IMG/VR virus record: IMGVR_UViG_3300025626_000101
Span: 1 to 28,680 of that record
DNA: 28,680 nucleotides
Source of the DNA: a virus
Direction: 5' to 3' (one strand)
Part shown: positions 1,370 to 27,662 of the stretch, in pieces
Position numbering within the stretch: the first letter of the stretch is position 1
How the letters are laid out: each line of letters begins with the position of its first letter
Translations under genes and position numbers: made by a program
Notes under the pieces: model-generated
The model's database searches: none
Told to the model about the DNA's origin: nothing
The model's input: only the letters and a program-made list of their open reading frames with translations

Positions 1370-1389
1370 GGGGCTATTCTATAGTCCCC
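1370..1389 (+). other. GGGG-CTAT hairpin after the first gene block
   Basis: GGGG and CTAT at 1370-1377 pair with ATAG and CCCC at 1381-1389, with a TCT loop and one bulged T. No T-run follows, so it is not a classical intrinsic terminator. Its right arm coincides with the left half of the promoter-like element at 1381, so it may be part of that element or an RNA-processing or attenuation structure. Confidence 0.45.
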
Positions 1390-1403
1390 TATTAAAAGGG
1401 AGC
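1381..1403 (+). promoter_or_regulatory. Candidate phage RNA polymerase promoter P1
   Basis: One of three copies of the core AGTCC-N2-TATTAAAAGGGA. With +1 at the first G of GGGA (1398), the element covers -17 to +6. The CCCT and AAA-GGGA positions match the T3 promoter. The initial GGGA is followed by GCA and TCCC, so the transcript would begin with a 5' hairpin. It lies upstream of the MoxR operon with a leader of about 150 bases. Recognition by the T7-type polymerase encoded in this window is inferred. Confidence 0.65.
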
Positions 1404-1420
1404 ATCCCTCTCCCCTTAGG

Positions 1421-1513
1421 TTATATATTATAATATAAGTATAACTTATAGGGTATAACGGGAGTAACCTGACAAGAGATATTACTGTGGTACATTACAA
1501 TGTTATTACAGTA
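1421..1513. promoter_or_regulatory. AT-rich palindromic intergenic region; possible origin or control region
   Basis: This part of the 1364-1551 gap contains a perfect 14-base AT palindrome at 1424-1437, a hairpin ATAAGT-ATA-ACTTAT at 1435-1449 (6-base stem, 3-base loop), and a nested stem-loop in which TACTGT (1483-1488) pairs with ACAGTA (1508-1513) around ACATT-AC-AATGT. A TATAAT at 1429-1434 has no convincing -35 partner. A phage promoter followed by an AT-rich stretch resembles the T7 primary origin layout. The 3-base-loop hairpin has the geometry of N4 vRNAP promoters. Both readings are inference. Confidence 0.4.
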
Positions 1514-1551
1514 CTATGTGAAGTAACTTTAATATATCGGAAGGATATAAA

Positions 1552-2577
1552 ATGGATATTAAAGAAACAAAAGAAATACTTGAGACTATACTTGAGTACA
1601 ATCTAACTAGTAATAAGACTGGGGACTTTGCTGACAACATTATACCTCACTTAGTATCGTTACCTGGGATTGGTAAAACAAGTATAGTTGAGGCTGTAAC
1701 TAAAGAGAAAGATTGGTATCTATATACTATACCTATAGCTTCTTATGATGCAGCTGAGATAGCTGGTTTCCCTATGTTAGATAAGGAGAATAAGAAGTAT
1801 GATAGGGCTAAGCCATTCTGGTTAGATACACCAACAGATAAGCCTGTAGTATTATTCTTTGATGAGATATCACAAGCACCTACAGCTAATGTTAATGTGT
1901 TAGCTATGTTAGTTAATGAGAGGAAGATAGGTGAGCATAAGCTTAACGATAATGTTATGATAGTGTGTGCGGGTAATGCTATGTCTCATAGGGCAGGTAC
2001 AAATCCTTTACCATCTCACTTTAAAGATAGGGTAACTTTCCTTGAAGTAGAGCCTGATCTAGAAGCCTTTATGAGTTATGCTAACAGTAAGAAGTTACAT
2101 GAGTATATTGTAGGGTTCTTAAGGAATAGACCATCATTCCTATCTATGTTTGATCCTAAGATAGATTCCTGTCCATCACCAAGATCATGGATGAGAGTTA
2201 ACACTATACTTAAAATGGATATGCCTTATAAGCTTAGAAATCAAACTATTAAGGGGCAAGTAGGGGAAGCAGCTCAAGCTGATTTCTTAGGTTATTTAAG
2301 AGTAGCTGATAAGATACCTGATCCACAACTAATACTATCAGGTGAATGTAAAGATATACCTGAAGATAATGTTGTTATGTATGCTTTGTGTGCGGCATTA
2401 TCTACGTTAGTAACTACTACAACTGCAAGACACTTTGTTAACTATCTTAGTATACTACCTAACAAGGAGTTTGCGGCATTCACTATCAGAGATGCTTTAC
2501 AGAGAGATAAGAAACTTAAGGCAGATAAACATATAACCTCCTGGTTTATGTCTGAAGGTAAAGCCTTATTACTCTAA
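1552..2577 (+). CDS. MoxR-like AAA+ ATPase, 341 aa
   Basis: A cytoplasmic ATPase of the MoxR/CbbQ/NorQ kind. The Walker A region is LPGIGKTS with K42 (the usual first Gly is replaced by Ser36). Walker B is VVLFFDEIS with D104-E105, sensor 1 is IVCAGNAMS around N142, and FKDRVTF with R160 is a candidate arginine finger. GGAAGGA six bases upstream of the ATG fixes the start. MoxR ATPases normally work with a VWA-domain partner as a chaperone or remodelling pair. Such a partner is encoded at 3925 in the same operon, separated by tiny ORFs. Its target in the infected cell is unknown. Candidate promoter P1 lies upstream. Confidence 0.9.
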   Translation: MDIKETKEILETILEYNLTSNKTGDFADNIIPHLVSLPGIGKTSIVEAVTKEKDWYLYTIPIASYDAAEIAGFPMLDKENKKYDRAKPFWLDTPTDKPVVLFFDEISQAPTANVNVLAMLVNERKIGEHKLNDNVMIVCAGNAMSHRAGTNPLPSHFKDRVTFLEVEPDLEAFMSYANSKKLHEYIVGFLRNRPSFLSMFDPKIDSCPSPRSWMRVNTILKMDMPYKLRNQTIKGQVGEAAQADFLGYLRVADKIPDPQLILSGECKDIPEDNVVMYALCAALSTLVTTTTARHFVNYLSILPNKEFAAFTIRDALQRDKKLKADKHITSWFMSEGKALLL

Positions 2578-2587
2578 TAAACTATAC

Positions 2588-2623
2588 AATAAGAATTAAG
2601 GAGGGCACGAGGTCCTTCTTATT
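2588..2623 (+). other. Intergenic stem-loop after the MoxR gene
   Basis: AATAAG and AAGGA on the left pair with TCCTT and CTTATT on the right, with an AATT bulge and a GC-rich 10-base loop. There is no clear T-run after it, so termination would be weak. It may be an mRNA stability or processing structure that sets different levels of the ATPase and the downstream genes. Confidence 0.4.
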
Positions 2624-2654
2624 AAGCCTATTAATAAAGAATAAAGGAAATGTT

Positions 2655-2825
2655 ATGGAAATATATTTACTTATGTATACTATAGCCTTGATTGTATTAG
2701 GAAAAATAATATATGATATGGCTAATAAAAGAAATCGTAATAAATGGGGGTGGACTTTAGGTTCTGTAGCTACCTCTCCTTTGGTAGGAATAATACTACT
2801 TTTAATTTTAAAAAATAAGGAATAA
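2655..2825 (+). CDS. Small two-helix membrane protein, 56 aa
   Basis: The ORF opens with ATG after AAAGGAAATGTT and ends five bases before the next gene. It has two hydrophobic stretches, about residues 3-20 (IYLLMYTIALIVLG) and 38-53 (GSVATSPLVGIILLLIL), joined by a basic loop (NKRNRNKWGW). It is probably an inner-membrane hairpin protein. Phages use such proteins for superinfection exclusion or membrane alteration, but nothing here identifies a specific role. Confidence 0.65.
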   Translation: MEIYLLMYTIALIVLGKIIYDMANKRNRNKWGWTLGSVATSPLVGIILLLILKNKE

Positions 2826-2829
2826 TACT

Positions 2830-3081
2830 ATGGCTAAATGGGGTGAAATACCTAATATAACTGCTAATCAAGAGCTTATTTCTCTTAATAAGAAGTTAGT
2901 TACTACATTAAAAGAATTAAAAGTTCTACAAAATAACTTATCAGAGTTAGCTGAACTATCTAAAGTAGATGTACATGCTAATGATCAGGCTATAATAGAG
3001 ATTGAGCAGTCAATTCAAGAATTAAATTCAATTAAAACTAAGAGACGTAGATTACTTAGCTTATTAAGTGGAGATGAATAA
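2830..3081 (+). CDS. Small coiled-coil protein, 83 aa
   Basis: From about residue 15 the protein is almost entirely predicted helix with regular Leu/Ile spacing (LNKKLVTTLKELKVLQNNL and IEIEQSIQELNSIK) and a basic KTKRRR stretch near the end. This suggests a two-helix coiled coil that dimerises or binds a partner. The stop shares its last base with the next start (TAATG at 3079-3083). No family is recognised. Confidence 0.7.
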   Translation: MAKWGEIPNITANQELISLNKKLVTTLKELKVLQNNLSELAELSKVDVHANDQAIIEIEQSIQELNSIKTKRRRLLSLLSGDE

Positions 3082-3287
3082 TGTTAGATGTAGAAGATAG
3101 ACTTAGATTAGCACATGAATCAGTGTGTAAGGCTGAAAATAAAAGGATGCGTGAAGTATTTAGTATACGTACTTATAAAGAAGGTGATCAGTGGACTGCA
3201 CAAAGAAATAGACAGACTACAGGAGCTAAAGGTGGTAGACAAAATAAACTTAAAAGACTTTGGGTTAAAGAAAGGACAGTTAGATGA
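3081..3287 (+). CDS. Small basic hypothetical protein, 68 aa
   Basis: The start is coupled to the upstream stop. An acidic N-terminal helix (DVEDRLRLAHESV) is followed by a strongly basic C-terminal half containing TTGAKGGRQNKLKRLWVKER. Such a basic tail could bind nucleic acid, but no domain is recognised. A shorter alternative ORF from 3115 in another frame was judged a shadow because it lacks coupling to its neighbours. Confidence 0.65.
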   Translation: MLDVEDRLRLAHESVCKAENKRMREVFSIRTYKEGDQWTAQRNRQTTGAKGGRQNKLKRLWVKERTVR

Positions 3288-3385
3288 GAGCAATATTAAA
3301 TAAGATATGTTGTTGGTGTAGGGAATATCCAAGTGATGAGCCTTGCTGTTGGTGTAATGATGAAGAGGATTATGATAATGACTGA
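3284..3385 (+). CDS. Cys-rich miniprotein, 33 aa, with two CCWC motifs
   Basis: The ATG at 3284 overlaps the upstream stop (ATGA), and the ORF ends eight bases into the next gene. The whole protein is essentially two copies of C-C-W-C (residues 9-12 and 21-24) separated by REYPSDEP, followed by an acidic tail. Cys10/Cys12 and Cys22/Cys24 could form a single zinc or other metal site like a minimal zinc ribbon. Its small size makes the call tentative, but the repeated motif and exact coupling argue against chance. Confidence 0.6.
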   Translation: MRAILNKICCWCREYPSDEPCCWCNDEEDYDND

Positions 3386-3539
3386 TAAATATTTTGATGT
3401 AGATAAACATAAACAAGAAATACAAAAGAAAGAAAAGCTTATGACACTTCTTACATGGTCAGTACTAGGTTTCTCTCTTATAAGCGCAATGTTTTGTGTT
3501 AGTGTTTTGATTAGTGGTATATGGAGATTAATACAATGA
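3378..3539 (+). CDS. Small single-pass membrane protein, 53 aa
   Basis: The start at 3378 (ATGACTGATAAA) is preferred over an in-frame ATG at 3333, which would overlap most of the CCWC miniprotein. A charged N-terminal segment (about 20 residues, Lys-rich) precedes one long hydrophobic helix, about residues 22-47 (MTLLTWSVLGFSLISAMF followed by CVSVLISGIW). It is likely a membrane-anchored small phage protein of unknown function. The stop overlaps the next ATG at 3536. Confidence 0.6.
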   Translation: MTDKYFDVDKHKQEIQKKEKLMTLLTWSVLGFSLISAMFCVSVLISGIWRLIQ

Positions 3540-3730
3540 CAGAAGAATTTAAAGATATAGATAATGATCCTATGCGTATGGCAGAGTATAAAGAAAGAGA
3601 AAGATTATCTAGAGTATTAGAAGAGTATTATAAACTTAAATCAGAGTATAAAGATATGAGTGAAGTAGAACTGTTTGTTTTAGCCCATGATATAGTTGGG
3701 CGTAAAGAGAAAGATATTGGTAGCAAGTGA
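3536..3730 (+). CDS. Small charged helical protein, 64 aa
   Basis: The ATG at 3536 is coupled to the upstream stop; an earlier ATG at 3521 lies inside the membrane-protein gene and has no ribosome-binding site. The protein is highly charged and helical (MAEYKERERLSRVLEEYYKL). No family is recognised. Confidence 0.6.
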   Translation: MTEEFKDIDNDPMRMAEYKERERLSRVLEEYYKLKSEYKDMSEVELFVLAHDIVGRKEKDIGSK

Positions 3731-3920
3731 TATAATAGCCTTTACACTCGATATGTTAATGCAAGAAGAATTGTTTTACATACCCGCTAATCAAGATGAA
3801 CCAACAGATAAGGAGATAGAATGGGCTAATAGATTAATAACTAACCGTATAGAGAATACTGACTTCATACCTACTGAAGCAGAACTCTATGAATTAATGC
3901 AACTCAAATTGAAAGTATAA
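3717..3920 (+). CDS. Small acidic protein, about 67 aa, start uncertain
   Basis: The frame is open from a TTG at 3696 to the stop at 3920. I place the start at the TTG at 3717, which follows AGAGAAAG at a suitable distance; ATGs at 3753 and 3759 are alternatives without a visible ribosome-binding site. The C-terminal part (EPTDKEIEWANRLITNRI and TEAELYELMQLKLKV) is a plausible two-helix protein. It ends four bases before the DUF2201/VWA gene. Function is unknown. Confidence 0.5.
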   Translation: MVASDIIAFTLDMLMQEELFYIPANQDEPTDKEIEWANRLITNRIENTDFIPTEAELYELMQLKLKV

Positions 3921-3924
3921 TACA

Positions 3925-5040
3925 ATGGATGCTCAAACAAAAGTAAGCAGAGCTATAATTAAACTTGTAGCTAACTACACTTTCTACGGTACATGTGCAC
4001 TTAGATTAAACGTCAGAGAAACTACTGACTATAAGACTATGTGTACTGATGGTATATCTATACTATGGAATCGAGAATTTGTAGATGAATGTAGTGAAGA
4101 AGAAGTAATGGGCACTATAGCACATGAGGTATGGCATGTTATATTCGGACATCATTTCCGCATGGGTAAACGTGAACATAAGAAATGGAATATAGCTACA
4201 GACTTCTCTATAAACAATAGTTTAAAGGAAGAAGGTTTTAGCCTACCTCCGGGTGCTTTAATGGATGATAAGTATATTAACATGAATGGAGAAAAGGTAT
4301 ATGATCTAATAGATGATGATGAATATAATCAAGCTCCTTCTTGGGGTGGTGTACTACCTATAACTGATGATCAAGGTAACCCTCTTACAGGTGAGGCGTT
4401 AGAGCAGGCTAAAGATGAAGTAGATCAGATGATAGCTTCAGCGGCTCAAGAAGCTAAGAAAGCTGGACAAGAAATTAGTGGTAAGTTATCTGATTTAATT
4501 CAGAGTATAAGAGAACCTCAAGTTAACTGGAAGTCTTATTTACCTACTTATCTTATGAATAGCAATCCTGATAGTCCTTCGTGGAAGAGACCTAATCGTA
4601 AGCTGTTATCTGAGTTTGACTTATATACTCCTGCTATGATATCTAATAATCTCGGCCCTGTAGCTGTAGTTATAGATACCTCTGCATCTGTATCTAAGGC
4701 CGAGAGAGAAGTGTTCTTATCAGAGTTACAATCAATAAACGAAACCTTAAAACCTAAATCAACTCATGTGATATGTGTAGACACTACTGTAGCTACATGT
4801 TATGACTTCGATCCTTACGATGATATAACAGAGTTAGCCCTTGTAGGGGGTGGTGGTACAGACATGTCACCAGGATTTAAGTATGTAGAAGAATGTCTTC
4901 CTGAAGTAGAAAATATACTTTGCTTCTCGGACTGTGAGTTCTGGGATTGGCCTCCAGAACCTGAAAAGCCTGTGTTATGGCTATCAACTGGTCAAAATAA
5001 AGAAAACCCTTATGGCACACTTGTGTCTGTAAAATTCTAA
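3925..5040 (+). CDS. DUF2201-type metallopeptidase-like / VWA-like protein, 371 aa
   Basis: Two parts are visible. The N-terminal domain contains H67-E-V-W-H71 followed by H76/H77, the HExxH zinc pattern of the putative metallopeptidase domain found in DUF2201 proteins. The C-terminal domain, from about residue 246, is VWA-like: D251-T-S-A-S255 is the MIDAS loop, GGGGTDMSPGF supplies the T312-D313 pair, and FSDCE follows. A charged linker with LNINGEK-type low-complexity separates them. This architecture is the usual partner of MoxR ATPases, and the ATPase lies upstream at 1552. The pair may form a chaperone or remodelling machine, or a protease-like activity acting on host proteins; the substrate is unknown. 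Confidence 0.85.
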   Translation: MDAQTKVSRAIIKLVANYTFYGTCALRLNVRETTDYKTMCTDGISILWNREFVDECSEEEVMGTIAHEVWHVIFGHHFRMGKREHKKWNIATDFSINNSLKEEGFSLPPGALMDDKYINMNGEKVYDLIDDDEYNQAPSWGGVLPITDDQGNPLTGEALEQAKDEVDQMIASAAQEAKKAGQEISGKLSDLIQSIREPQVNWKSYLPTYLMNSNPDSPSWKRPNRKLLSEFDLYTPAMISNNLGPVAVVIDTSASVSKAEREVFLSELQSINETLKPKSTHVICVDTTVATCYDFDPYDDITELALVGGGGTDMSPGFKYVEECLPEVENILCFSDCEFWDWPPEPEKPVLWLSTGQNKENPYGTLVSVKF

Positions 5041-5058
5041 GCACGAAAGGATATAACA

Positions 5059-6045
5059 ATGTTTAGTGATTATATAAGTATAGCAAGACAATACTATGAT
5101 GAGCCTGGTTATGAGAAGGATAAATCTTCTTTGCCTTATCAAGCTAATAGGTATTATTCTCTTATTAACTATCTGAAAACAATAACAAATAATATAGAGT
5201 ATGATTACAAAGATCTTTATGATGAAATTAAGTCTAGTATATTTGAAAAGTTTAATTCATCAATTAAGAACGGTAGTATTAATAGTGAGCTATGTGAATT
5301 GATTGAAGTCAGACCACCTAACCGTGACTTCTCGCATAGCTACTCTAATTATTCTCCTAGCTACAGTGCTAATCGTATGTATGAAAAACAAAGAGATAAA
5401 AGCGAAGATGATCTTGATGACATTAGTTATGGCATAAGTAATCATCTATCTTATGTTATGAGTTATATTGTAAGAAAGGAATGTTATCTTAACTATAAGA
5501 TTAATGAAACAGAAGACGACATTATTAAAGCAGAGTACAAAGATAAAGTATTAAAGCTTAATAGGAATATACAGCAGATAGGTTCTAACTATATGTATGG
5601 GTTACACTACACCTATGTAAATGATACATATAAGAAGTCAACCTTCAATAAAGAAATAACTCACATGGACCCTATAAGATATAAGCCTAATATAATAGTA
5701 GATAAGAATTGGTTTGATACTGTGGGTGATAAAGGTTTTCAGATACTAGAGTATCAAGGTAGCAGAGCCTTTACTATCTCAGCTGAAGAGTATTCTAAAG
5801 ACTCAAACAGAACACTGTACTTTGTTAAGACTCTACAAATGACTGGTACACGAGAGGAAATGCGAAATGCAAACTGGCATAACGTATTAGATAAGCTAGA
5901 TAAGATAGTTAAAGTAAGAGATTTAATATTATCTGTATCAAATCAAGACGATAAGATATGGGCGTTAGGTGCTGATGAAACATGGGCTGAACGTACCATG
6001 CGAGCAAGACAGAAACGTACTATGATGAAGGGACTTAACATCTAA
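5059..6045 (+). CDS. Hypothetical protein, 328 aa, third member of the MoxR/VWA operon
   Basis: The gene starts after GAAAGGATATAACA, a ribosome-binding region very like that of the MoxR gene, 18 bases after the VWA gene stops. The protein is rich in Tyr, Asn and Ser in the first 130 residues (SHSYSNYSPSYSANRMYEKQ) and more globular afterwards, ending in a basic helix (AERTMRARQKRTMMKG). I recognise no domain and no catalytic motif. Its position as the last gene before candidate promoter P2 suggests it works with the ATPase/VWA pair, perhaps as a substrate adaptor. That is inference from context only. Confidence 0.8.
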   Translation: MFSDYISIARQYYDEPGYEKDKSSLPYQANRYYSLINYLKTITNNIEYDYKDLYDEIKSSIFEKFNSSIKNGSINSELCELIEVRPPNRDFSHSYSNYSPSYSANRMYEKQRDKSEDDLDDISYGISNHLSYVMSYIVRKECYLNYKINETEDDIIKAEYKDKVLKLNRNIQQIGSNYMYGLHYTYVNDTYKKSTFNKEITHMDPIRYKPNIIVDKNWFDTVGDKGFQILEYQGSRAFTISAEEYSKDSNRTLYFVKTLQMTGTREEMRNANWHNVLDKLDKIVKVRDLILSVSNQDDKIWALGADETWAERTMRARQKRTMMKGLNI

Positions 6046-6049
6046 ATGT

Positions 6050-6072
6050 ATAGTCCATTATTAAAAGGGAAC
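6050..6072 (+). promoter_or_regulatory. Candidate phage RNA polymerase promoter P2
   Basis: Second copy of the AGTCC-N2-TATTAAAAGGGA element, -17 to +6 with +1 at 6067. It starts five bases after the stop of the upstream gene. The predicted leader GGGAACGCTATTTCCC folds into a 5' hairpin and is followed by TAGAAAGGAA and the ATG at 6098. This arrangement is very like the T7 gene 10 leader (GGGA...TTTCCC...AGAAA). It would drive the nucleotide-metabolism and replication genes. Confidence 0.7.
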
Positions 6073-6097
6073 GCTATTTCCCTAGAAAGGAACTCAA

Positions 6098-6517
6098 ATG
6101 AATCGTGCTAACATAGTACACAGATTAGCGCACGCTAGAACTGAGACAGAAAGAATGGATACTATGGATGAGTTAATAACTTATGATAGAGAGAAAGGAA
6201 GAGAACTAATGAGAGAAGAACCAACAGACTTTCATGGTGACTTTAAAGACATGAATGAAAGAGTTAAAGATAGTATTATAAATCCTGCTCACTACAAAGT
6301 AATACCCCCAGGTAATTACCCTGAAGGCTTAGAGTATATGGATCTAATGCAGTATATTTTATCACATCACAAAGGTATTGAGTCACACTTAGTAGGTCAG
6401 ATACTTAAGTATAGTATAAGACTAGGTAAGAAAGATGCTAAACAACAGGACGCATTAAAGATACAATGGTATGCTAATTACCTTGTTGATGTAATCAAAA
6501 AGCAAGATGAGGGATAA
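6098..6517 (+). CDS. DUF3310 protein (T7 gp1.7-like nucleotide kinase family), 139 aa
   Basis: The C-terminal half carries the DUF3310 pattern: N62-P-A-H-Y66, an acidic helix (GLEYMDLMQYIL), then GQILKYSIRLGKK (100-112) and a final helix QWYANYLVDVI. This family includes T7 gp1.7, a dGMP/dTMP kinase, although many members are untested. The first 50 residues are a charged helical extension. The start at 6098 follows AGAAAGGAACTCAA. As first gene behind P2 and next to DNA replication genes, a role in dNTP supply is plausible. Confidence 0.8.
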   Translation: MNRANIVHRLAHARTETERMDTMDELITYDREKGRELMREEPTDFHGDFKDMNERVKDSIINPAHYKVIPPGNYPEGLEYMDLMQYILSHHKGIESHLVGQILKYSIRLGKKDAKQQDALKIQWYANYLVDVIKKQDEG

Positions 6518-6731
6518 TGTAAGATTCCCCATAGCTAATTATAAGTATCTGTCAGTAAACGGATACCAAGATTTCCCAGTATTTTGGGATGTCTTTGAAG
6601 ATAAAACTAGCTTTGTAATGACAGAGCTATTCGAAATTAGTGTTAACAATGAGGTTAACTCTGATAATGTAGAAGAAATAGTACTACAAATAATTGTGGA
6701 ACTACATTCTGATACAATAACAATCCATTAG
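6507..6731 (+). CDS. Hypothetical protein, 74 aa
   Basis: The gene overlaps the DUF3310 gene by 11 bases and ends 15 bases before the ssDNA-binding protein gene. It is acidic with alternating beta-type stretches (YQDFPVFWDVFEDKTSF and EEIVLQIIVELHSDTITI). No family is recognised. Support comes from length, coupling and strand continuity. Confidence 0.65.
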   Translation: MRDNVRFPIANYKYLSVNGYQDFPVFWDVFEDKTSFVMTELFEISVNNEVNSDNVEEIVLQIIVELHSDTITIH

Positions 6732-6746
6732 AAAAGGAATAATATA

Positions 6747-7175
6747 ATGGCTAATCAAGTAATGGTAGTAAGAGACGTAACATTTAACTGGGCTAAACTA
6801 GTTGATAAACATTCTCCCTTCGGTACACTCCAGTGGGACGTACAAGTTGTTACAGATAATGAAGCAACTAAAGCTCAACTAGAGAGTAGCGGTATTAAGA
6901 TGAAGACAGGTGAGAACAAAACCTGGTATGCTAACATTAAACGTAAAGCGGTTAAGGCTAACGGAGAAGAACAAGATCCACCTAAAGTTATTGACTTAGA
7001 TAAAGAGGAAATGGCTCCAAGTAAAATAAAGAATATGGGTAATGGCACTAAAGGTCATATCAAATTATTCTCTTATGACTGGAATGTAGGTGGTAAGTCA
7101 GGTGTATCTGCTATGTTAGTAGCTCTACAAGTAACAGACTATGTTGCGTATGAAGGGGCAGGTGAAGACTTTTAA
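6747..7175 (+). CDS. ssDNA-binding protein, T7 gp2.5-like, 142 aa
   Basis: The start follows AAAAGGAATAATATA. The protein reads as a single OB-fold domain: strands VMVVRDVTFNWAKLV, LQWDVQVVTD and WYANIKRKAV, then GTKGHIKLFSYDW and SAMLVALQVTDYV. It ends in an acidic tail with a terminal aromatic (GAGEDF), the hallmark by which gp2.5-type proteins contact DNA polymerase and helicase. At 142 residues it is shorter than T7 gp2.5 (232). Its place just before the replication genes matches gene 2.5 in T7. It would coat single-stranded DNA and organise the replisome. Confidence 0.75.
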   Translation: MANQVMVVRDVTFNWAKLVDKHSPFGTLQWDVQVVTDNEATKAQLESSGIKMKTGENKTWYANIKRKAVKANGEEQDPPKVIDLDKEEMAPSKIKNMGNGTKGHIKLFSYDWNVGGKSGVSAMLVALQVTDYVAYEGAGEDF

Positions 7176-7318
7176 TGGATAGTAAATTAATTAGAGTTGA
7201 TACAAGGAATGGGTCTGTATGGATCCTTCCTTCGTATAACGTTAGTTACTACACTACTCAGTTGGCTCAGGTTCTCTGGGCTAACAGATTTACTTTAAGA
7301 AAGAAAGGTACTAAGTAA
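7175..7318 (+). CDS. Small hypothetical protein, 47 aa
   Basis: The ATG at 7175 uses the last base of the upstream stop (TAATG), and its own stop overlaps the next ATG in the same way at 7316-7320. The sequence (MDSKLIRVDTRNGSVWILPS at the start, a basic end LRKKGTK) has no recognised domain. Double coupling is the main evidence. Confidence 0.6.
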   Translation: MDSKLIRVDTRNGSVWILPSYNVSYYTTQLAQVLWANRFTLRKKGTK

Positions 7319-7761
7319 TGAAAGACGATTATGTTTATACCGCAGGTGCAATGGAGCACGTTAGTATTTCAGATATGAATAACTGGCGTGATTACGTAGA
7401 AAAATGTTTGGATGAATGTGACATTAAATGTTTACATCCTACAAGACGTACACCTATTCACGATCAAGAAGCGGATGATGGTATTTCTACTTACAATAAA
7501 CTTAAACGTATCACAGCTCAAGACTTGCTAGATATAAAGAGATCTCGAGTAATCCTAGCGGATTTAAGAGACTCTATGCCTGGAAAAAAATGGGGTACGG
7601 TTATGGAAGTAGCTCAAGCTTATCATTGGGATAAGGTTATAATAGCACTTGTAGATCCTGATCAGTTTAAACATCCATTCATTTACACTTATGCTACAGA
7701 AGTACATTATGATTTACAGGATGCAGTTGATTCTGTAATAGAGTACTACGATGGAGTATAA
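7318..7761 (+). CDS. Nucleoside 2-deoxyribosyltransferase-like protein, 147 aa
   Basis: The Rossmann-like pattern of this family is visible: a first strand leading to YTAGAM (7-12), a helix with IKRSRVILADL ending at D82, then W-G-T-V-M-E97-V in which the Glu is at the place of the catalytic nucleophile, followed by AYHWDKVIIALV. Such enzymes cleave or transfer the N-glycosidic bond of deoxynucleosides or deoxynucleotides and act in salvage or in clearing modified nucleotides. Length is typical. It overlaps the next gene by 11 bases. Substrate cannot be predicted. Confidence 0.75.
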   Translation: MKDDYVYTAGAMEHVSISDMNNWRDYVEKCLDECDIKCLHPTRRTPIHDQEADDGISTYNKLKRITAQDLLDIKRSRVILADLRDSMPGKKWGTVMEVAQAYHWDKVIIALVDPDQFKHPFIYTYATEVHYDLQDAVDSVIEYYDGV

Positions 7762-8236
7762 AGACCTAAAAGTTTTAATAGACTCGGGTAGTAACCATGA
7801 AGATCAAGGTCACTGGATTAGTAATAACCCTATTATTCCAGTGGGCCTTCATGGTTTTGTTTATGCTATACATAATATCCTTGATGACAAGTACTATGTA
7901 GGCAAGAAAAACTTTTTACACGGCGGTAAAAAGAATTATAAAAGAAAGGGGGTTAAAGTACCTAACTATAAGTATGGTACTGAAACTAATTGGAAGACCT
8001 ATACAGGTTCTTCAGCCGAACTTAACTTAGATATAGCTAGAAATGGTATGGATAACTTTTCATTCTTAGTATTAAGGTTATATCAAACTAGAGGCGGACT
8101 ATCTTATGGTGAAGCTAATCTACAACATAAGTTAGACGTATTAACAATGAAAGATGATGATAATAAAGCAAAATTTTATAATGGTAACATTGCTGGTATT
8201 AAATTCATCCCTAAAGAGACAGGAAAACCAACATGA
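7751..8236 (+). CDS. GIY-YIG-type endonuclease, 161 aa
   Basis: G35-F-V-Y38 and K47-Y-Y-V-G51-K-K give a degenerate GIY...YIG pair. WKTYTGSS and a helix lead to DNFSFLVLRLYQ and then SYGE121, matching the conserved catalytic Glu of this superfamily. It resembles stand-alone phage nucleases of the Seg type. It lies where T7 has its endonuclease I (between the ssDNA-binding protein and DNA polymerase genes), and no gp3-like resolvase is visible, so it could be either a homing-type nuclease or a functional replacement. A separately encoded HTH protein follows with an ATGA overlap. Confidence 0.75.
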   Translation: MEYKDLKVLIDSGSNHEDQGHWISNNPIIPVGLHGFVYAIHNILDDKYYVGKKNFLHGGKKNYKRKGVKVPNYKYGTETNWKTYTGSSAELNLDIARNGMDNFSFLVLRLYQTRGGLSYGEANLQHKLDVLTMKDDDNKAKFYNGNIAGIKFIPKETGKPT

Positions 8237-8391
8237 CTTATTGGAAACTAGATAACTATGATGTTAAAATGATAAGAAAATTATCGCAAGAAACTACTAT
8301 ACCTCAGAAAATACTTGCATACAGATTTAATATATCACAAACGATGGTATCATTCATAAAGAATAACCGTCGTAGAGTTAATGTCTCATAA
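8233..8391 (+). CDS. Small helix-turn-helix protein, 52 aa
   Basis: The ATG at 8233 overlaps the nuclease stop. The segment DVKMIRKLSQETTIPQKILA then YRFNISQTMVSFIKNNRRR is a textbook HTH: a first helix, a turn, then the recognition helix SQTMVSFIKN with a basic end. The same motif is common at the C-terminus of phage homing endonucleases. It may serve as a small repressor or as the detached DNA-binding part of the upstream GIY-YIG nuclease. Confidence 0.7.
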   Translation: MTYWKLDNYDVKMIRKLSQETTIPQKILAYRFNISQTMVSFIKNNRRRVNVS

Positions 8392-8689
8392 GAAAAGATT
8401 ATTGATTGCTTACGTTATAGTATTTGGTTTATATTTAATCTTATACTATAATAAAACAAATGATGATCTGACTACAGACAGTGTAGTAATCAATAAAGAA
8501 AAGGTTAAGCCTTATATAATGAAAGAAAATAAGGTTGAAACAAATAAATACTCTATTGAATTACCAGCTAAACGTAGATTTGGTTACAAGCTAGGGGATA
8601 ATCTTAATATAGTATTAACTCCTAGTTTAAGAAATAAAGATGATAGCGCTAATCATGGTGCTATTATTAAATTAGAACTATTATTTTAA
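8381..8689 (+). CDS. Membrane-anchored hypothetical protein, 102 aa
   Basis: The gene overlaps the HTH gene by 11 bases. A basic start (MSHKKR) and a single hydrophobic segment at about residues 7-23 (LLIAYVIVFGLYLILYY) form an uncleaved signal anchor, so the remaining 78 residues would face the periplasm. The soluble part has several beta-type stretches and ends LELLF. No family is recognised. Confidence 0.7.
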   Translation: MSHKKRLLIAYVIVFGLYLILYYNKTNDDLTTDSVVINKEKVKPYIMKENKVETNKYSIELPAKRRFGYKLGDNLNIVLTPSLRNKDDSANHGAIIKLELLF

Positions 8690-8699
8690 AGGAAACACT

Positions 8700-10538
8700 A
8701 TGACAATATATGCGTGGGACATCGAGGCGAATGGCTTCCAAGATGTAGCGGACACAATATGGGTTTCAGTAATGCGTAACTTAGAAACAAAAGAGTTACA
8801 TATATTCAGTGACTATGTTGAAGGTTATCCTGACTTATCTGAATCATTTAAATTATTAGATGAAGCTACAGGTATTATAGCACATAACGGTATGAGATAT
8901 GATCGTGTTGTGTTAGAAAAAGTAACTGGATACGCTATAGATCGTAACAAGATAATTGATACGGTAATATACTCAAGGTTAAATGACTTCCATCGTAAGA
9001 AAACATTTAGAAAACATAGTCTTAAGGCTCTTGCTATACAAGCAGGAGAAGAACAAAAGATGGATTATGATGGTGGCTTTGATAATTACTCTGATGAGAT
9101 GGTGAAATACTGTATAGCAGATGTTGATGCTAATATAGCAGTGTATAACATGCTTATGAAAGAGTATGATAAAATTAAAGAGACTAACCCTAACTACGAT
9201 GATGCTATTAATATCGAACATCAAATGGCTTACTGGTCTAGTGAGCAAATAAAAAATGGTTGGGAAATAAACGAAGAACTGCTGGACAGCACTCTAATTA
9301 AAATAAAAGGCGAACTAAATGAAATCGAAAAACGAGTTGAACCAGGACTTGGAACACTCACAATTACAATTGATAAAGAACCGAAGACAGCTAAATACAA
9401 GAAGAACGGAGAATACACCGCTGTTTCTGCAAGGCTACTCAGCGACTATCTTGGGCGCTATGTTGATGTGTCTGATGCTTTATCTGATAGTCCCCCAATA
9501 AAACCTGAAGAAGAGTTTCAACGTAAAGAAACAGTTGAAGCAAGACTAGGTAATCAAGAACATCTTAAAGAATTTCTGTATACTATAGGGTGGGAGCCAA
9601 CTCAGTGGAACTGGAAGAAAATAAACGGACAGTTTCATAAGGTAAGTCCTAAACTAACTACAGATAGCTTAATAAAACTAGGAGATGTAGGTAAAGATAT
9701 CGATAAGTACTTTACTCTTAGAGCTAGACACAGTATACTTACTGGCTGGAAAGAACATATACATAATGGAAGATTATATGGTGATGTAATTGATATTGGT
9801 GCTGCTACGGGTAGACAAACACACAAGATTATTGCTAATATACCTTCACCTAAAGCTACTTACGGTAGTGATATACGTTCTATGTTTATATCTGCTAAAG
9901 ATAAAGTACTAATCTCAGCTGATGGCGCAGGTTATCAAGCAAGAGTTGTAGCTCACTTTGGTAGAGATGAAGAGATGTCTAATGAAATATTGAAAGGAGA
10001 TATACACCAGAAAAACGCTGATGCTATACAGTGTACTCGCAATGAAGCTAAACCTTTCTTCTTTGCTTTCTTATTTGGTGCAGGTGGAGTTAAACTAGGT
10101 ACTATACTAGGTAGATCCTCTCATGCGGGTAATAAAGCTAAAGATGCTTTCTTAGCTCGATGGCCTGCTCTTGCAAGCTTAACAGAAAAAGTAAAGAACG
10201 TAGCTCAACAACGAGGGTATCTACGTGGCCTTGATGGTCGTCGTATTTATACTGAAGAAGCATATAAAGCATTCAACTACCTTATACAAGGTACTGAAGC
10301 TATACTAATGAAACGTACAATAGTACGTATCAATGAAGCCTTCGAAGCAGAAGGTATTAAAGCGAAGCAATTACTGTTCTATCACGATGAGTGTACTTGG
10401 GAGTTATCTCCTGAAGATGCTATCAAAGCTGAACCCATTATACGTAAGTGGTTTGTTGAAGCTCCTAAAGAATTAGGTGTAGATATAATGGAAGCAGGCG
10501 ATTGTAAAATAGGTAACGATTATTTAGAGGTGCACTAA
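8700..10538 (+). CDS. DNA polymerase, A family, with 3'-5' exonuclease (T7-type), 612 aa
   Basis: Exonuclease motifs are intact: D7-I-E9, N63...D68 in HNGMRYD, and YCIAD141. Polymerase motif A is S-A-D408-G-A-G-Y-Q413-A-R, motif B is R447...K451...F455 followed by FLFGAG, and motif C is H562-D563-E564. It copies the phage genome with the gp4-like helicase. Compared with T7, E480 is Gln413, Y526 is Phe455 (as in E. coli Pol I F762) and Y530 is Phe459. At 612 residues it is shorter than T7 gp5 (704). The DnaJ insert known from HMO-2011-type phages is absent. The start follows AAAGGAAACACT. Confidence 0.95.
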   Translation: MTIYAWDIEANGFQDVADTIWVSVMRNLETKELHIFSDYVEGYPDLSESFKLLDEATGIIAHNGMRYDRVVLEKVTGYAIDRNKIIDTVIYSRLNDFHRKKTFRKHSLKALAIQAGEEQKMDYDGGFDNYSDEMVKYCIADVDANIAVYNMLMKEYDKIKETNPNYDDAINIEHQMAYWSSEQIKNGWEINEELLDSTLIKIKGELNEIEKRVEPGLGTLTITIDKEPKTAKYKKNGEYTAVSARLLSDYLGRYVDVSDALSDSPPIKPEEEFQRKETVEARLGNQEHLKEFLYTIGWEPTQWNWKKINGQFHKVSPKLTTDSLIKLGDVGKDIDKYFTLRARHSILTGWKEHIHNGRLYGDVIDIGAATGRQTHKIIANIPSPKATYGSDIRSMFISAKDKVLISADGAGYQARVVAHFGRDEEMSNEILKGDIHQKNADAIQCTRNEAKPFFFAFLFGAGGVKLGTILGRSSHAGNKAKDAFLARWPALASLTEKVKNVAQQRGYLRGLDGRRIYTEEAYKAFNYLIQGTEAILMKRTIVRINEAFEAEGIKAKQLLFYHDECTWELSPEDAIKAEPIIRKWFVEAPKELGVDIMEAGDCKIGNDYLEVH

Positions 10539-10780
10539 TGCCATACATTGAAAGACAAAGAAGAGAAGAATTATTTGATGACTCACCTAAGACAGCAGGT
10601 GAAATACAATATTTAATAGCTGACATGATACAAGACTATCTTACAGACAAGGGTCCTTATAACTATCAAACACTTAATGATGTTATGGGTGCTTTAGCCG
10701 GAGCTCAAATGGAGTTTTATCGTAAGGTAGTAGCTCCGTATGAAAATAAAAAGGAGTTACTTAATGGATCCGTATATTAG
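10538..10780 (+). CDS. Conserved small phage protein (DUF6899-like), 80 aa
   Basis: MPYIERQRRE at the start, and NDVMGALAGAQMEFYRKVVA followed by PYENKK and NGSVY at the end, fit a widespread phage family of unknown function that I associate with DUF6899. The start shares a base with the DNA polymerase stop (TAATG) and has GAGGTG upstream. The end overlaps the glutaredoxin gene by 17 bases. Its conserved place beside DNA polymerase suggests a replication-linked role, not proven. Confidence 0.75.
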   Translation: MPYIERQRREELFDDSPKTAGEIQYLIADMIQDYLTDKGPYNYQTLNDVMGALAGAQMEFYRKVVAPYENKKELLNGSVY

Positions 10781-11015
10781 AACCCATGTGGTTACTATGT
10801 ATACTAAACCCGACTGTATATTTTGTGAGAAAGCAAAAAACTTATTGCATTCCCAAGATAATTGTGTTATAAATGAGGTTCGACTGGATAAAGAACCTCA
10901 GTTTATAGCTGATGTTAAAGAAAGGTTAGGTAATACTGTTCCACAAATAATAATAGATGGAGTTCACATAGGTGGCTATGATAACTTAGTTAATTATATA
11001 GAATCATGGAGATAG
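10764..11015 (+). CDS. Glutaredoxin, 83 aa
   Basis: A single thioredoxin-fold domain of the glutaredoxin type: MYTKPDCIFC with active-site C18-x2-C21, the cis-proline loop NTVP60QI, and the glutathione-side motif GGYDNL (70-75). The start at 10764 is chosen because AAAAAGGAG precedes it; an in-frame ATG at 10740 lies further inside the upstream gene. It would supply reducing power, classically to ribonucleotide reductase, which is not in this window. Confidence 0.9.
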   Translation: MDPYIRTHVVTMYTKPDCIFCEKAKNLLHSQDNCVINEVRLDKEPQFIADVKERLGNTVPQIIIDGVHIGGYDNLVNYIESWR

Positions 11016-11021
11016 TAGAAG

Positions 11022-11840
11022 ATGAGTACTAATATATACATTGATGGCGACATTTTAGTATACCAATCTATTTGGGGTGCTAAAAATAAAAAGGATATTA
11101 AAAAGAAACTAGACCAAACAATAGCTGGACTAATGTCAGACCTTGAAGGAGGTAACGGCATGATAGCTATTAAAGGTATAGGTAACTTTAGAAAAGATAT
11201 TTACCCTTTGTATAAAGGTAATAGAAAGAAAGAGTTAACTCAGGAAGAAAAAGATTTCTTTGAGTATGCTTATAATTATCTTAAAGATGACTGGAAGTCT
11301 GTAACCGCAGATGATATGGAAGCTGATGATTTATTAGCTATATGGCAGACAGAAGAACCTGGTATTATAGTTAGTATAGATAAAGATATGTTACAAGTAC
11401 CAGGATTACACTATAATACACGAAGAAAGGATTACACTAATATAACCAAAGAGGAAGCTTCATTATTACTACATACTCAAGTAATGATGGGTGACTCAAC
11501 AGACAACATACCTGGCCTTAAGGGTATAGGTAAAGTTAAAGCAGCAAAGGTATTAGAAGGAATACCTATGGATAGACACTTATCTACTGTAAGAGAGTTT
11601 TGGAAGAAACACTTTGGTAGAGGTTGGGAAGATAATATGCAACTCAACATGGATTTAATATACTTAAGGAGAACACTCAATGATCGCTATGATATCCGAA
11701 CAGGACGAAGAGCTATTAAAGAATTACAACATAAAGGTGGAAAGGAATTGGAATCACCCCGACGAGTATCAAGCGACGTTCGTGAAGGGTTGGGTGAATG
11801 TAATGACAACAGGGGAGACGAGAGAACAAGCAGTATATAG
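11022..11840 (+). CDS. 5'-3' exonuclease (T7 gp6-like, FEN/PIN fold), 272 aa
   Basis: Metal-binding acidic residues appear in family order: D8-G-D10, D97-D-M-E100-A-D102-D103, S-I-D120-K-D122 and G157-D158-S-T-D161-N-I-P-G, followed by the helix-hairpin-helix region LKGIGKVKAAKVLEG. It removes RNA primers and degrades host DNA in T7-type phages. The last 53 residues (220-272) overlap the next gene in another frame. They are Arg/Gly/Glu-rich with codons such as CGA, CCC and GGG that are rare in the rest of the gene, so this tail is probably not a folded conserved part. Confidence 0.9.
   Translation: MSTNIYIDGDILVYQSIWGAKNKKDIKKKLDQTIAGLMSDLEGGNGMIAIKGIGNFRKDIYPLYKGNRKKELTQEEKDFFEYAYNYLKDDWKSVTADDMEADDLLAIWQTEEPGIIVSIDKDMLQVPGLHYNTRRKDYTNITKEEASLLLHTQVMMGDSTDNIPGLKGIGKVKAAKVLEGIPMDRHLSTVREFWKKHFGRGWEDNMQLNMDLIYLRRTLNDRYDIRTGRRAIKELQHKGGKELESPRRVSSDVREGLGECNDNRGDERTSSI
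11665..11670 (+). promoter_or_regulatory. Ribosome-binding site inside the exonuclease gene
   Basis: AAGGAG lies eight bases upstream of the ATG at 11680, within the exonuclease coding region. It supports real translation of the out-of-frame ORF that overlaps the exonuclease end by 161 bases. Confidence 0.7.
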
Positions 11841-11943
11841 ACTGAAAGAAATGTTAGCAGGTGAAATCTTAATTAACAATCCTAAGTTAAGTGTTGAAGC
11901 TGCTTTCGAACAATTAATAATGTGTAACAAGCTAGGAGTATAG
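11680..11943 (+). CDS. HicB-like small protein, 87 aa, overlapping the exonuclease gene
   Basis: The region NYNIKVERNW...EYQATFVKGW...TTGETREQAVYRLKEML resembles the HicB antitoxin fold: strand, strand, then a turn with T-x-G-x-T-x-E/x-A and a helix. No HicA toxin is visible beside it. A strong AAGGAG supports the start; an ATG at 11689 is an alternative. Two thirds of the gene lies outside-frame within the exonuclease gene, and it stops two bases before the primase-helicase gene. Role unknown: orphan antitoxin, regulator or small replisome factor. Confidence 0.7.
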   Translation: MIAMISEQDEELLKNYNIKVERNWNHPDEYQATFVKGWVNVMTTGETREQAVYRLKEMLAGEILINNPKLSVEAAFEQLIMCNKLGV

Positions 11944-11945
11944 CG

Positions 11946-13544
11946 ATGGGTAGAATAATTAGAAAAACTAACTGTGATTCATGTGGTTCAACTAATAATA
12001 AATGTGAATACGATGACGGATCTACATGGTGTTTCACCCCAGACTGTGAAGGTAATAAAAAGGCATTTAATAATAAAGAAGAAAGTGTTGTTGTACCAAT
12101 AAAGTCTTTACCCTTTGGTACATCAGCTGAACGCAATATATCTAGTAAGATATGTGAGATGTTTGGTGTTAAGCGAGAGGTATCTTCATCAGGAGGTACT
12201 AGCGCAGTATACTACCCTTACTATGAAAACAATGTAGTAGTTGGTAGTAAGAAAAGATTGTTCCCTAAAGACTTTAGAGTAGAAGGTAAACTACCTCTTA
12301 CTTTGTTCGGTCAGAATATCTTTTCAGGTGGTGGCAAGCGTATTGTTATCACTGAAGGTGAAGAAGATACACTAGCAGTAGCTGAAGCATATAGTAAGTA
12401 TAGCACAGGTGTAGTCTATCCTGTAGTATCAATACCTTCTGCTTCTAATTTAAAGGCTGTGGTAGAGAACAGAGATTACTTAAGATCATTTGAAGAAGTA
12501 ATATTGTTTATAGATACAGACGAAGCAGGTAAAATAGCTGTGGATAAGTTGGCTAATGCTATTGGCTTTGATAAAGTAAAGGTAGCTAAGACACAACACA
12601 AAGATGCTTCAGAAGCTTTAACTGAATCAGGTCACATGATACTATTAAGAGGTATATGGGATGCCCAACAATATAGTCCTCAAGGTATTCTTACTGGTGA
12701 AGACTTATGGGGTAAACTAATAGAGTATAATGATATTGAATCTTTACCTTACCCGGAATGCTTCTCAGGTTTAAATGATAAGATTAAAGGTATGAGGCTA
12801 GGTGAAATAAGTCTATGGGTTTCAGGTACAGGTGCAGGTAAGTCTACTATGCTCAGAGAAATAGTATTAGATATTATTGATAAGACAAATGATAAAGTAG
12901 GTATTATAGCTTTGGAAGAAAGCCCCGCTGAAACCACACGTAAGCTTGCAGGTATGGTAATAAATAAAAATCCTGCTGCAGATAAAATAGAGTTAGATGA
13001 ACTCAGAGTAGGCTTTGATAAGTTTAAAGATAGAGTATTAGTGTTAGATCACTGTGGTTCTATGGCTAATGGTATTATATCTCAGCTAGAATACATGGCA
13101 CTATCTGGTTGTAAGTACTTGTTTATCGATCACATAACTATACTAGTATCTGAAGGTTCCGATGGACTAACGGGTAACGAAGCTATAGATAAAGTAATGA
13201 ATGATCTACTAAGAATAACTAAACAACATAACGTTTGGATAGGCTTAGTGTCTCACTTACGTAAGATGTCTACTACAGGTCAATCATTTGAAGAAGGTAG
13301 ATTACCTACTGTAGATGATATACGTGGTTCTGGTTCTATCAAACAAATATCACATGACATACTAGCATTTGCTCGTAATATAACTGCAGATCAAGAAGAA
13401 GAAAGAAACACAATTAAACTTTCAGTATTAAAATCAAGATATACTGGTAAGACAGGTCCAGCAGGTACTTGTAAGTTTGATTATGATACAGGTAGATTAC
13501 AAGATGGATTGTATGATGATATGTTGGACGGCCTTAATCTATAA
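11946..13544 (+). CDS. Primase-helicase, T7 gp4-like, 532 aa
   Basis: All gp4 parts are present. A zinc-binding domain has C10-x2-C13 and C29-x4-C34. The TOPRIM primase core has ITE137GEED and FID190TD192E. The RecA-like helicase has Walker A G294-TGAGK299-ST and Walker B YLFID395H, followed by WIGLVSHLRK and the C-terminal RGSGSIKQISHDILAFARN. It unwinds the fork and primes lagging-strand synthesis with the DNA polymerase encoded at 8700. Length is close to T7 gp4 (566). No clear internal start for a short helicase-only form was identified. Confidence 0.95.
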   Translation: MGRIIRKTNCDSCGSTNNKCEYDDGSTWCFTPDCEGNKKAFNNKEESVVVPIKSLPFGTSAERNISSKICEMFGVKREVSSSGGTSAVYYPYYENNVVVGSKKRLFPKDFRVEGKLPLTLFGQNIFSGGGKRIVITEGEEDTLAVAEAYSKYSTGVVYPVVSIPSASNLKAVVENRDYLRSFEEVILFIDTDEAGKIAVDKLANAIGFDKVKVAKTQHKDASEALTESGHMILLRGIWDAQQYSPQGILTGEDLWGKLIEYNDIESLPYPECFSGLNDKIKGMRLGEISLWVSGTGAGKSTMLREIVLDIIDKTNDKVGIIALEESPAETTRKLAGMVINKNPAADKIELDELRVGFDKFKDRVLVLDHCGSMANGIISQLEYMALSGCKYLFIDHITILVSEGSDGLTGNEAIDKVMNDLLRITKQHNVWIGLVSHLRKMSTTGQSFEEGRLPTVDDIRGSGSIKQISHDILAFARNITADQEEERNTIKLSVLKSRYTGKTGPAGTCKFDYDTGRLQDGLYDDMLDGLNL

Positions 13545-13546
13545 TT

Positions 13547-13569
13547 GAAGTCCATTATTAAAAGGGAAT
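13547..13569 (+). promoter_or_regulatory. Candidate phage RNA polymerase promoter P3
   Basis: Third copy of the AGTCC-N2-TATTAAAAGGGA element, beginning three bases after the primase-helicase stop; +1 would be 13564. GGGAATACCC gives a short 5' hairpin (GGG/CCC, AATA loop). The RNA polymerase start codon at 13575 follows after only 11 bases, so the leader is extremely short. It is placed to let the polymerase boost its own gene. Confidence 0.6.
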
Positions 13570-13574
13570 ACCCA

Positions 13575-16631: not shown

Positions 16632-19600
16632 TTAAGCAGGCACCATATGAGTTATCTCATTAGATGCTCCTACTAATTGATTAATTACATTATTATCAGA
16701 TGAAGAATTTCTAGTCATAGTGTTAAGTAAACCACTTGTTGTTAAAGTAGATCCTTCACCATACTGAACATTATGTCTAGCCATACTATTTTTAGATGGT
16801 TTAATATCAAAAGGTAATTTTCTGTAAGCTGCTTTTAAAGATGGATGAGCTTGTTCACCTCTATATAATAAACCAGAACTACCTCTCATTATATCTACTA
16901 AAGCAAGAAGATCTTTCCCCTCAACTCTATTAAATTCCCTATCTTTAGCATTAGCTTCAGTAGGAGGTAACCAACCATGATTACCTGCAGCCTCTAATAT
17001 AGCTTTATTTCTTAGATTACCTTTAATAACACCTTTTCTTTTAGATTCACTTCTAGCTAACTGATAAGGTTCAAACATAGTAGAGGTTCTATTATTGTCT
17101 ATAGATAAATCAGGATCTTCTACTATAGCTTGAGAATCTGCACCATAAACATTATCATACATCTTATCAAAGTAACCAGTAAGCCCATGGAAAGAATTAT
17201 TATTGTTCTCTTCACCTAAGAATCTCGTTCCTATATTAGCTCCTGTTTTACCGTATTTATCTTTAACTTCATTTAATCTTTCGTTATAAGTGTTAACTAC
17301 TTTAGACATCATACTTGGAGCTTGTGCAGCAAAAGCTGGTATAGCTATGTTGTTATAAGCATTTATAGCTAACAAGTGACCTTCTGCTCCTGTTATTAAA
17401 GCATCATGTATAGCAATAGCTTGTACTGGGTTACCTTTAAATCCACCATCCGGACTATTCATAGCTAACATAGCTAAAGTCATTATAGTAGAGTCTCCAC
17501 CTTGTATAACATCAACAGGCCAGGAGTTTCTTTGTTTAGTTCCAGGTCTATACTGGTAAAGCTCTTCACCTTCTAACCTAGCATCAGCTGCTCCTGCGTA
17601 GTCTGTTTGAATAGTACCTCTAGGTATATTCATACCTGCTATTCTATCTGTTTTAATATTAAGGCCATCTACTACTTGATCATTAACACTTCTCTCTAAC
17701 TCTGGAGAAATATTACTTGCAGATAATTGTTGAGTACCTCCAAACATATTAGTTATAGTAGAAGGAGCATTAATAGCTGCCATAGCAGTACCTAAAGCTC
17801 TCATAGCAGTTTGATAACCATTAAGTTTACTCATGTGTTTTTCCATAGAGTAAGTATACAGGTCTGTCATATCATTAAGCATACGCATATTATCACCTGC
17901 ATACGTTGCTCTTACTTCAGCCCAAGCTTCATTTAATTTAGGATTATTAACTGCTGCTTTATTTATTTTGCTAAAGAAATCCTCGGCTTCTGAATACATT
18001 TTTTGAGCTATTTTACCATAAAGACCTGCCACAACAAGCCCTCTAGAATAATCTTTAGCAGCACCAACTTTTCCTCTTGCTTCAGTTAAAGAATTAAATA
18101 AATCAGCCCAAACTTGTTTATAAGGACCATCATCTACTGAAGAAAAAGTCAGTTCAATATCTTGATCTATACTGTTATATATCTGTTCACGTAAGCTTCC
18201 GTGCATTTCTTTATTATCATCTAATATATCTGGAATCAAACCTAAGATTTCTGCACTACCACTATCACCTATAATAATAGATATTAAACCTGCGTTAGAC
18301 TGTCTAGCATCAGACTCCATCATGTTTTGTAATCTAATATGTTGACCTTGAGGTGTAACTGATATTTGATATGCATCTATTAATACAGAACTTGGATATT
18401 GCCATTCACCTTTTTCTGTCATCCAAGGATTATTACTTGCAAAATCATCTAACGTATTATTGTTATTAGAATCTATTAATTGTTTACCTAAGACAGAGGC
18501 TTTACTTAAATTATTAGAACCAAAGTTAATATAATCTAAAGGAACCCATTTAGATAAAGGTTTATTATTTAAATTACTTCTAGAGAAATTTTTTGCAGAA
18601 GCAGGATCAATATGCTTTGCCATTTGTGCACCAAGATTATAATAGAAATTAAGAGCTTGATATTTAGCAGGATCACTAGACTTAAGGTTATACAACTTTC
18701 TTTGTATTGCTTGCCCACGAGAAATACCTTTAAGCCCTTTAGTTTCAAGGTATATTTTTCTAGCCTCACTAACTACTGCAGGTGCACCTAAAGACCACAA
18801 CCCTGAATTATTATCTATTCTAATAGGTTGTGTTCCTTCAAAATTAAAAGAAGTTCTTGTAGTACCTTTCTGATTCATAATACTAAGGTTATTAGATATA
18901 TGGAAGTATCTTAAGGTAGCAGGAGATTGTTTAGTTATTAAATAGCTAGGCATGTTTTCAGTAGACCTAACTTGTATATCATCCATTTCCTTTTTTAATT
19001 GACCCATTTTTTGCTGTATTATTTTTTGAGCCTTTTCATTTCCGTGTTTCTTAATTAACTTCTCTTTATAAACAGGGTCTAACTCAGATAGTGTGCTTTG
19101 AAAAGGACTATTATTATCAATTCCTTTTGTTAAACTACTATACATTTTTTGTTGCATAGAATAAAGTACAGGGTTAACACCAATAGGTATACTTCCTTGT
19201 AATTGCATAAAAGTCTCAGCAGCATTTGTAGATTTAACAGATCCTTTTTTATCCATAAAAACTTTTTTTACTGCATCACTTAATACGCTTTCAGTCATCG
19301 CAGGAAACTTAGGTGCTTTAAGACTAGTAATAACTGAACTTCTGCTAGACACATCATACACATTAGCTATTTTTGCAGCTGAAGCCATATTAAGAGTTAA
19401 TTGATCACCTAGTAAAGGTATTACTTTACCCTTTTTACTTCTAGCCCACTTAATTTGACCTTGATCTGTAAGATCTTTAATGAAGGTCATAGCGTTATCT
19501 CTAGTTCTTTGTACATCAAATGAACTAGGTGTTTGTCCTTCAGGTGTAGATAACCTAATCATATCATCAGTAACAGAAGTTACCATTTGATTTAACATAG

Positions 19601-20363: not shown

Positions 20364-20369
20364 TTTATT

Positions 20370-24461: not shown

Positions 24462-24482
24462 AGTATGTTGTCTCCTTAGTTT

Positions 24483-27653: not shown

Positions 27654-27662
27654 AATTAACTC

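Follow-up and report, generated by a model that had tools for sequence, protein, structure and literature searches.

Genome organization and repeats at operon starts

The DNA analysed here, called the window, is a 28,680-nt fragment of a CRP-7-type Roseobacter phage genome (CRP-7, MK613349, 58,106 bp). It aligns to CRP-7 with 78% DNA identity in joined pieces spanning 55% of a 20-kb query, and its RNA polymerase (RNAP) is 86.6% identical to the CRP-7 RNAP. The genes are arranged in two arms, one on the plus strand with the replication genes and the RNAP gene and the other on the minus strand with the structural genes, and the arms converge just past the RNAP operon. The plus-strand arm contains an operon at 1552..6045, encoding a MoxR-like AAA ATPase, small genes, a DUF2201/VWA-like protein, and a 328-aa protein, and an operon at 6098..13544, encoding a DUF3310 protein first, together with DNA polymerase A, a 5'-3' exonuclease, a primase-helicase, and small genes. 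The gene of a T7-like single-subunit RNAP of 819 aa lies at 13575..16034 on the plus strand, with the ATG at 13575 taken as its start. Left-facing late (structural) genes occupy 16632..28680 on the minus strand.

A repeat of the form AGTCC-NN-TATTAAAAGGGA is present in exactly three copies in the window, all on the plus strand. The pattern AGTCCNNTATTAAAAGGGA matches exactly at 1383-1401 (P1, AGTCCCCTATTAAAAGGGA), 6052-6070 (P2, AGTCCATTATTAAAAGGGA), and 13549-13567 (P3, AGTCCATTATTAAAAGGGA). All three sites are intergenic, in gaps at 1364-1551, 6046-6097, and 13545-13574 with co-directional flanking open reading frames. P1 is located 5' of the MoxR-like ATPase operon, P2 5' of the replication operon, and P3 immediately 5' of the RNAP gene, ending 8 nt before its ATG. 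An earlier sequence-only reading had described the repeats as intergenic plus-strand elements at operon starts, and their exact threefold occurrence is confirmed. Its coordinates of 1381, 6050, and 13547 are correct for a 23-nt element whose first base is -17, but AGTCC itself begins two bases later. With up to 4 mismatches allowed, no copy beyond these three is found in the window, minus strand included, in line with that reading.

At up to 3 mismatches on both strands of the window, three sites are observed versus 0.18 expected, and none of 100 dinucleotide shuffles reached three matches. A chance or compositional repeat would be a very improbable explanation, as the family genomes also hold zero matches to the reversed pattern and the element is invariant across relatives. 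Chance does produce the shorter 17-mer core AGTCCNNTATTAAAAGG in IMG/VR, where 36 unrelated loci carry it versus 83 stretches for the reversed pattern. The unrelated loci match the reversed-pattern expectation, and the core alone is thus not diagnostic outside the CRP-7-type family.

The purine-rich end of the element (AAAAGGGA) stands before start codons and could in principle be a Shine-Dalgarno sequence or leader element instead of part of a promoter. At P3, its distance to the RNAP ATG is 8-15 nt, and there it may double as a ribosome-binding site. At P1, however, the next open reading frame is 150 nt downstream, and P2 is followed by a separate AAGGAA. The purines are also preceded by the invariant AGTCC block, which has no function in ribosome binding. 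We consider a purely translational role highly unlikely.

Copies in close relatives

CRP-7 itself contains five copies of the motif, three on the plus strand at places syntenic with those in the window and two on the minus strand. One minus-strand copy, at 38278 (P4), precedes the ribonucleotide reductase genes, and the other, at 57228 (P5), stands where the late arm begins. Copies syntenic with P1 are found in CRP-7, G006, and G009, those of P2 in CRP-7 and many contigs, and P3 is exact in relatives. The exact motif is present in 38 of 38 viral contigs with an intact region upstream of the RNAP gene, and the flanks of the motif are variable. All sites in this family (lineage A) fall at five syntenic places, and each reads into the next gene. 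The late arm of the window carries no copy on its own strand, and the minus-strand copies of the relatives are located further to the right. The expectation that the late promoter should lie to the right of the window thus holds in relatives, in which minus-strand copies precede late genes (CRP-7 38278 and 57228).

The two variable bases after the AGTCC block differ between sites: AT is found at P2 and P3, and CC or CT at most P1, P4, and P5 sites. The pair may tune promoter strength.

We also considered whether the element generally includes a stem-loop in the leader and rejected this idea. A stem-loop is present at P1 and strong at P4 (z down to -6.5), but P3, P5, and several P2 variants lack it. 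We note that the stem-loops at the leader start of P1 and P4 (e.g. CRP-7 38278, minus strand, z down to -6.5) resemble the T7 phi10 leader.

In three contigs (L049, G006, and G007), the sequence runs across the two termini of the linear CRP-7 record, so that P1 and P5 stand back to back within a divergent early region. The CRP-7 record is therefore cut inside this region, through circular permutation or an arbitrary end.

The polymerase and its recognition hairpin

The 819-aa protein matches PF00940 with an E value of 2.1e-59 over residues 385-791, and its sequence relatives in the PDB are T7 and mitochondrial RNAPs. T7-type catalytic motifs are present, and the IDGTCNG, SKR..MTRAY, and AVHDSF motifs align to T7. 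The AlphaFold model (ma2d091cf644c, pLDDT 83.7) has as its best Foldseek match in the PDB the T7 RNAP-promoter complex 1cez, with a TM score of 0.71; the superposition covers 682 residues with a Z score of 33.0 and an rmsd of 3.6. The predicted fold is T7-like, with a promoter-binding N-terminal domain and a specificity hairpin. The hairpin corresponds to residues 680-716 (window 15612-15722), with strands at 680-692 and 702-716, and its tip at residues 697-700 has pLDDT below 50. This region is where T7 RNAP reads its promoter.

Among 24 distinct lineage A RNAPs, the longest invariant run of residues is 664-713, which holds the hairpin strands, and none of 5000 permutations reached an invariant run of 50. 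Codons 678-716 show 18 DNA variants in these RNAPs despite the invariant protein run. As far as these alignments indicate, an invariant recognition hairpin accompanies an invariant promoter.

The nearest RNAPs outside CRP-7 are 22-30% identical to that of the window. CRP-7 was described as representing a new podovirus group, with an RNAP that shares less than 25% identity with the RNAPs of T7-like phages (PMC6918029). That paper mentions no promoters and none are annotated in MK613349; a full-text search, with many journals outside its coverage, found no published description of them.

Diverged versions of the motif in distant relatives

A profile search gave RNAPs about 36% identical to that of the window, and two genome-size contigs each from groups B and C were read. 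De novo motif discovery, for which recovery of the CRP-7 motif served as the positive control, gave CTAAGTTCCTTATAG as the group B motif, and scans gave TTAAGTACCTTATAG for group C and CCGTCCCTTATAG for group E. These three motifs are at operon starts. The pattern AAGTNCCTTATAG has 27 matches versus 0 control matches (22 records). In an exact-match table, each lineage holds its own version only, and all reversed-pattern controls are zero. The versions of A, B, C, and E share a core, GT-N-C-NN-TA, which retains C-7, T-4, and A-3 of the T7 core CACTATA, and their -11 to -8 blocks read AGTC, AGTT, AGTA, and CGTC, respectively; the group E contig ends before RNAP. In every case where a contig of these distant relatives includes a gene downstream of the motif, gene and motif share a strand. 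The P4 place, after the gp49 homologue, is common to A and B (G014/G015), each with its own version.

In groups B and C, the RNAP gene is internal to an operon, and no motif copy is found immediately 5' of it. An autogenous P3 is therefore not general. In the relative G016 (RNAP about 34% identical), neither the de novo search nor the scan found a motif.

These comparisons also bear on a role of the sites as operators, through which a phage regulator would act on promoters of the host RNA polymerase. Short, invariant sites at operon starts are what such operators would look like. However, the strand of the sites always follows the downstream genes, the sites are not palindromic, and they end in a TATA/initiator-like element. 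The versions also shift with lineage in step with the promoter core. Furthermore, sigma-70-like sites number 58 versus 76 expected in shuffles, and no fixed host promoter stands beside the motif sites. We regard operators as improbable, though somewhat less so than a ribosome-binding or chance origin. A sigma-70-like site at 13516-13545, which ends just before P3, was considered and was not significant.

Two candidate comparisons were rejected. The contig G001, taken as a motif-free and RNAP-free control, has its own version of the motif and ends before the RNAP arm. The contigs L047, L051, and L117, with B-type late genes and an A-type promoter, looked like a natural promoter swap, but a B-type promoter is also present 80 bp downstream; with both promoter types, these contigs represent a mosaic junction and provide no test of specificity. 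The tandem A-type and B-type promoters, 80 bp apart (L047:11231-11311, L051:2844-2924, and L117:8419-8499), are upstream of a B-type 584-aa gene and form a recombination joint at the promoter. A different tandem arrangement is found before the terminase gene in group C, where two promoter copies are 34-47 bp apart (G017:C1:51494 and 51528; G018:C1:50152 and 50199). Covariation of specificity-loop residues with base -8 is not claimed, as the loop alignment is uncertain and covers three RNAPs only.

Start site and register

The elements of groups B, C, and E end in TATA|G followed by purines (CNNTATAG); the T7 pattern thus sets their +1, and they were used as the reference for lineage A. When the A motif was slid without gaps over the B, C, and E elements, the best alignment, at 6.1 bits, placed AGTCC with its A at -11. 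This score was reached by 42 of 2000 column permutations, so the support is moderate. In the register we favor, AGTC therefore probably occupies -11 to -8, C is at -7, the variable pair is at -6/-5, TATT is at -4 to -1, and +1 is the first A of AAAAGG. The predicted start sites would then be A1394 for P1, A6063 for P2, and A13560 for P3, the last with a leader of 15 nt. The core of C at -7, T at -4, and A at -3 with a purine start is unambiguous in B, C, and E, and depends on the register in the window.

The sequence-only reading had aligned the sites from -17 to +6 with a G at +1; the alignment with relatives places +1 four bases upstream, on an A, which makes the earlier register doubtful. 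The same promoters would in that case start at the first G of GGGA, with AGTCC at -15 to -11, at G1398 for P1, G6067 for P2, and G13564 for P3 (leader of 11 nt), and the spacing from element to start would be four bases longer than in relatives. A start at GGGA would be like those of T7 and T3, and the T3 promoter also has AAAGGGA. With the start on G, conservation would extend to +2, nearer to B, C, and E, which are conserved only to about +1, whereas a start on A puts the conserved block to +6. The leader stems at P1, P4, and some P2 sites also begin at GGG, as the group B stems begin at +1, which counts against the start on A. On the other hand, with A of AGTCC at -15 the gapless alignment scores -3.3 bits, 9.4 bits worse than the best register, and the spacing of T7-type polymerases is rigid. 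The AGTCCCTTAT of P5 is identical to the AGTCCCTTAT of a G015 site with a TATA|G start. In T7, positions -11 to -8 are read by N748, R756, and Q758 (PMC5937735), and a start on G would put the variable bases at -10/-9, which are contacted by N748 and R756 (PMC5937735). We therefore see the G start as a real but lesser possibility.

Resemblance to T3 promoters had served to set the sequence-only register. CCCT is indeed present at the first site, but the second and third sites read CATT.

If +1 is on A, the invariant AAAAGG at all sites raises the tentative idea, which we rate as less likely than not, that the lineage A polymerase natively starts on an AAAA run, with an ATP-initiating class of T7-type promoters in use across the genome, possibly with slippage that would give a 5' oligo-A head. 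Related lineages would then have switched between TATT|AAAA and TATA|G, with the GT-N-C core kept.

Predicted promoters of the phage polymerase

We believe, with a probability of roughly 93%, that the repeats are promoters of the phage's own T7-like single-subunit RNAP, since the sites are conserved exactly, their position and strand fit the downstream genes, their versions are lineage-specific, the polymerase has a predicted T7-like fold, and its hairpin is frozen. The sequence-only reading, which had assigned the repeats to the 819-aa T7-like polymerase, is thus supported by conservation, by syntenic positions at operon starts, by the lineage-specific versions, and by the RNAP fold.

By this reading, the host polymerase would make the first phage RNAP by transcribing the early region. 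The phage RNAP, presumed user of P1-P3, would bind each site via its specificity hairpin in the major groove, as in T7, and would transcribe the MoxR/VWA operon from P1 and the replication operon from P2. P3 would drive the gene of the RNAP itself and may form a positive feedback loop. P4 and P5, known from relatives and located beyond the window, would transcribe the late genes leftwards.

Comparison with known systems

Like T7-class promoters, the motif is short and directional, stands on the coding strand where operons begin, and is present in several copies per genome. From these sequence comparisons, it is well supported that the elements belong to a known kind, the promoters of T7-type phage RNAPs, for an undescribed polymerase lineage. 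The closest likeness in the favored register is to the T7 phi2.5 (class II) promoter (TAATACGACTCACTATTAGGG, CACTATT|AGG; PMC10175277), which is ATP-initiated (PMC7727699): both have C at -7, T at -4, A at -3, T at -1, and a start on A. However, positions -11 to -8 read AGTC in the window motif and GACT in phi2.5, and the window motif has AAAA before GGG, variable bases at -6/-5, and an upstream AT block reduced to TAT. The T3 promoter shares AAAGGGA around the start provided that +1 is G, but the window has CCCT at one site only, and the register needed is not the one supported by the homologues. EM1 RNAP, a T7-like polymerase derived from a metagenome, has its own promoter TCAGAAGTCACACTATAA, a sequence-based prediction that was confirmed in vitro (PMC9596486). 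It is similarly a divergent phage RNAP with a sequence-predicted promoter, but from another phage and with another consensus. Autographiviridae are delimited by genome relatedness, with the genes all on one strand, whereas here the genes form two arms that converge from opposite strands.

The sites would provide predicted promoters for a lineage of polymerases that share less than 30% identity with T7 RNAP relatives and come from marine phages reported to be widespread, and a predicted transcription map for a phage group that had none. With four diverged promoter versions and three polymerases in hand, cognate specificity is testable together. If transcription starts on A, the enzyme would be a polymerase that naturally initiates with ATP, which would make it practically useful for RNA synthesis.

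Further observations in the two arms

The MoxR-like AAA ATPase (1552-2577) and the DUF2201_N/VWA-like protein (3925-5040), which share the P1 operon, resemble cellular MoxR-VWA pairs. The three large late-arm genes nearest to RNAP (window 16632-27653; G009, G010) are swapped for very different versions in close relatives, and the gp34 homologue is 22-23% identical between close relatives whose RNAPs are 87-93% identical. Three tandem 48-nt units are found at 26244-26387, within the minus-strand gene at 24483-27653.
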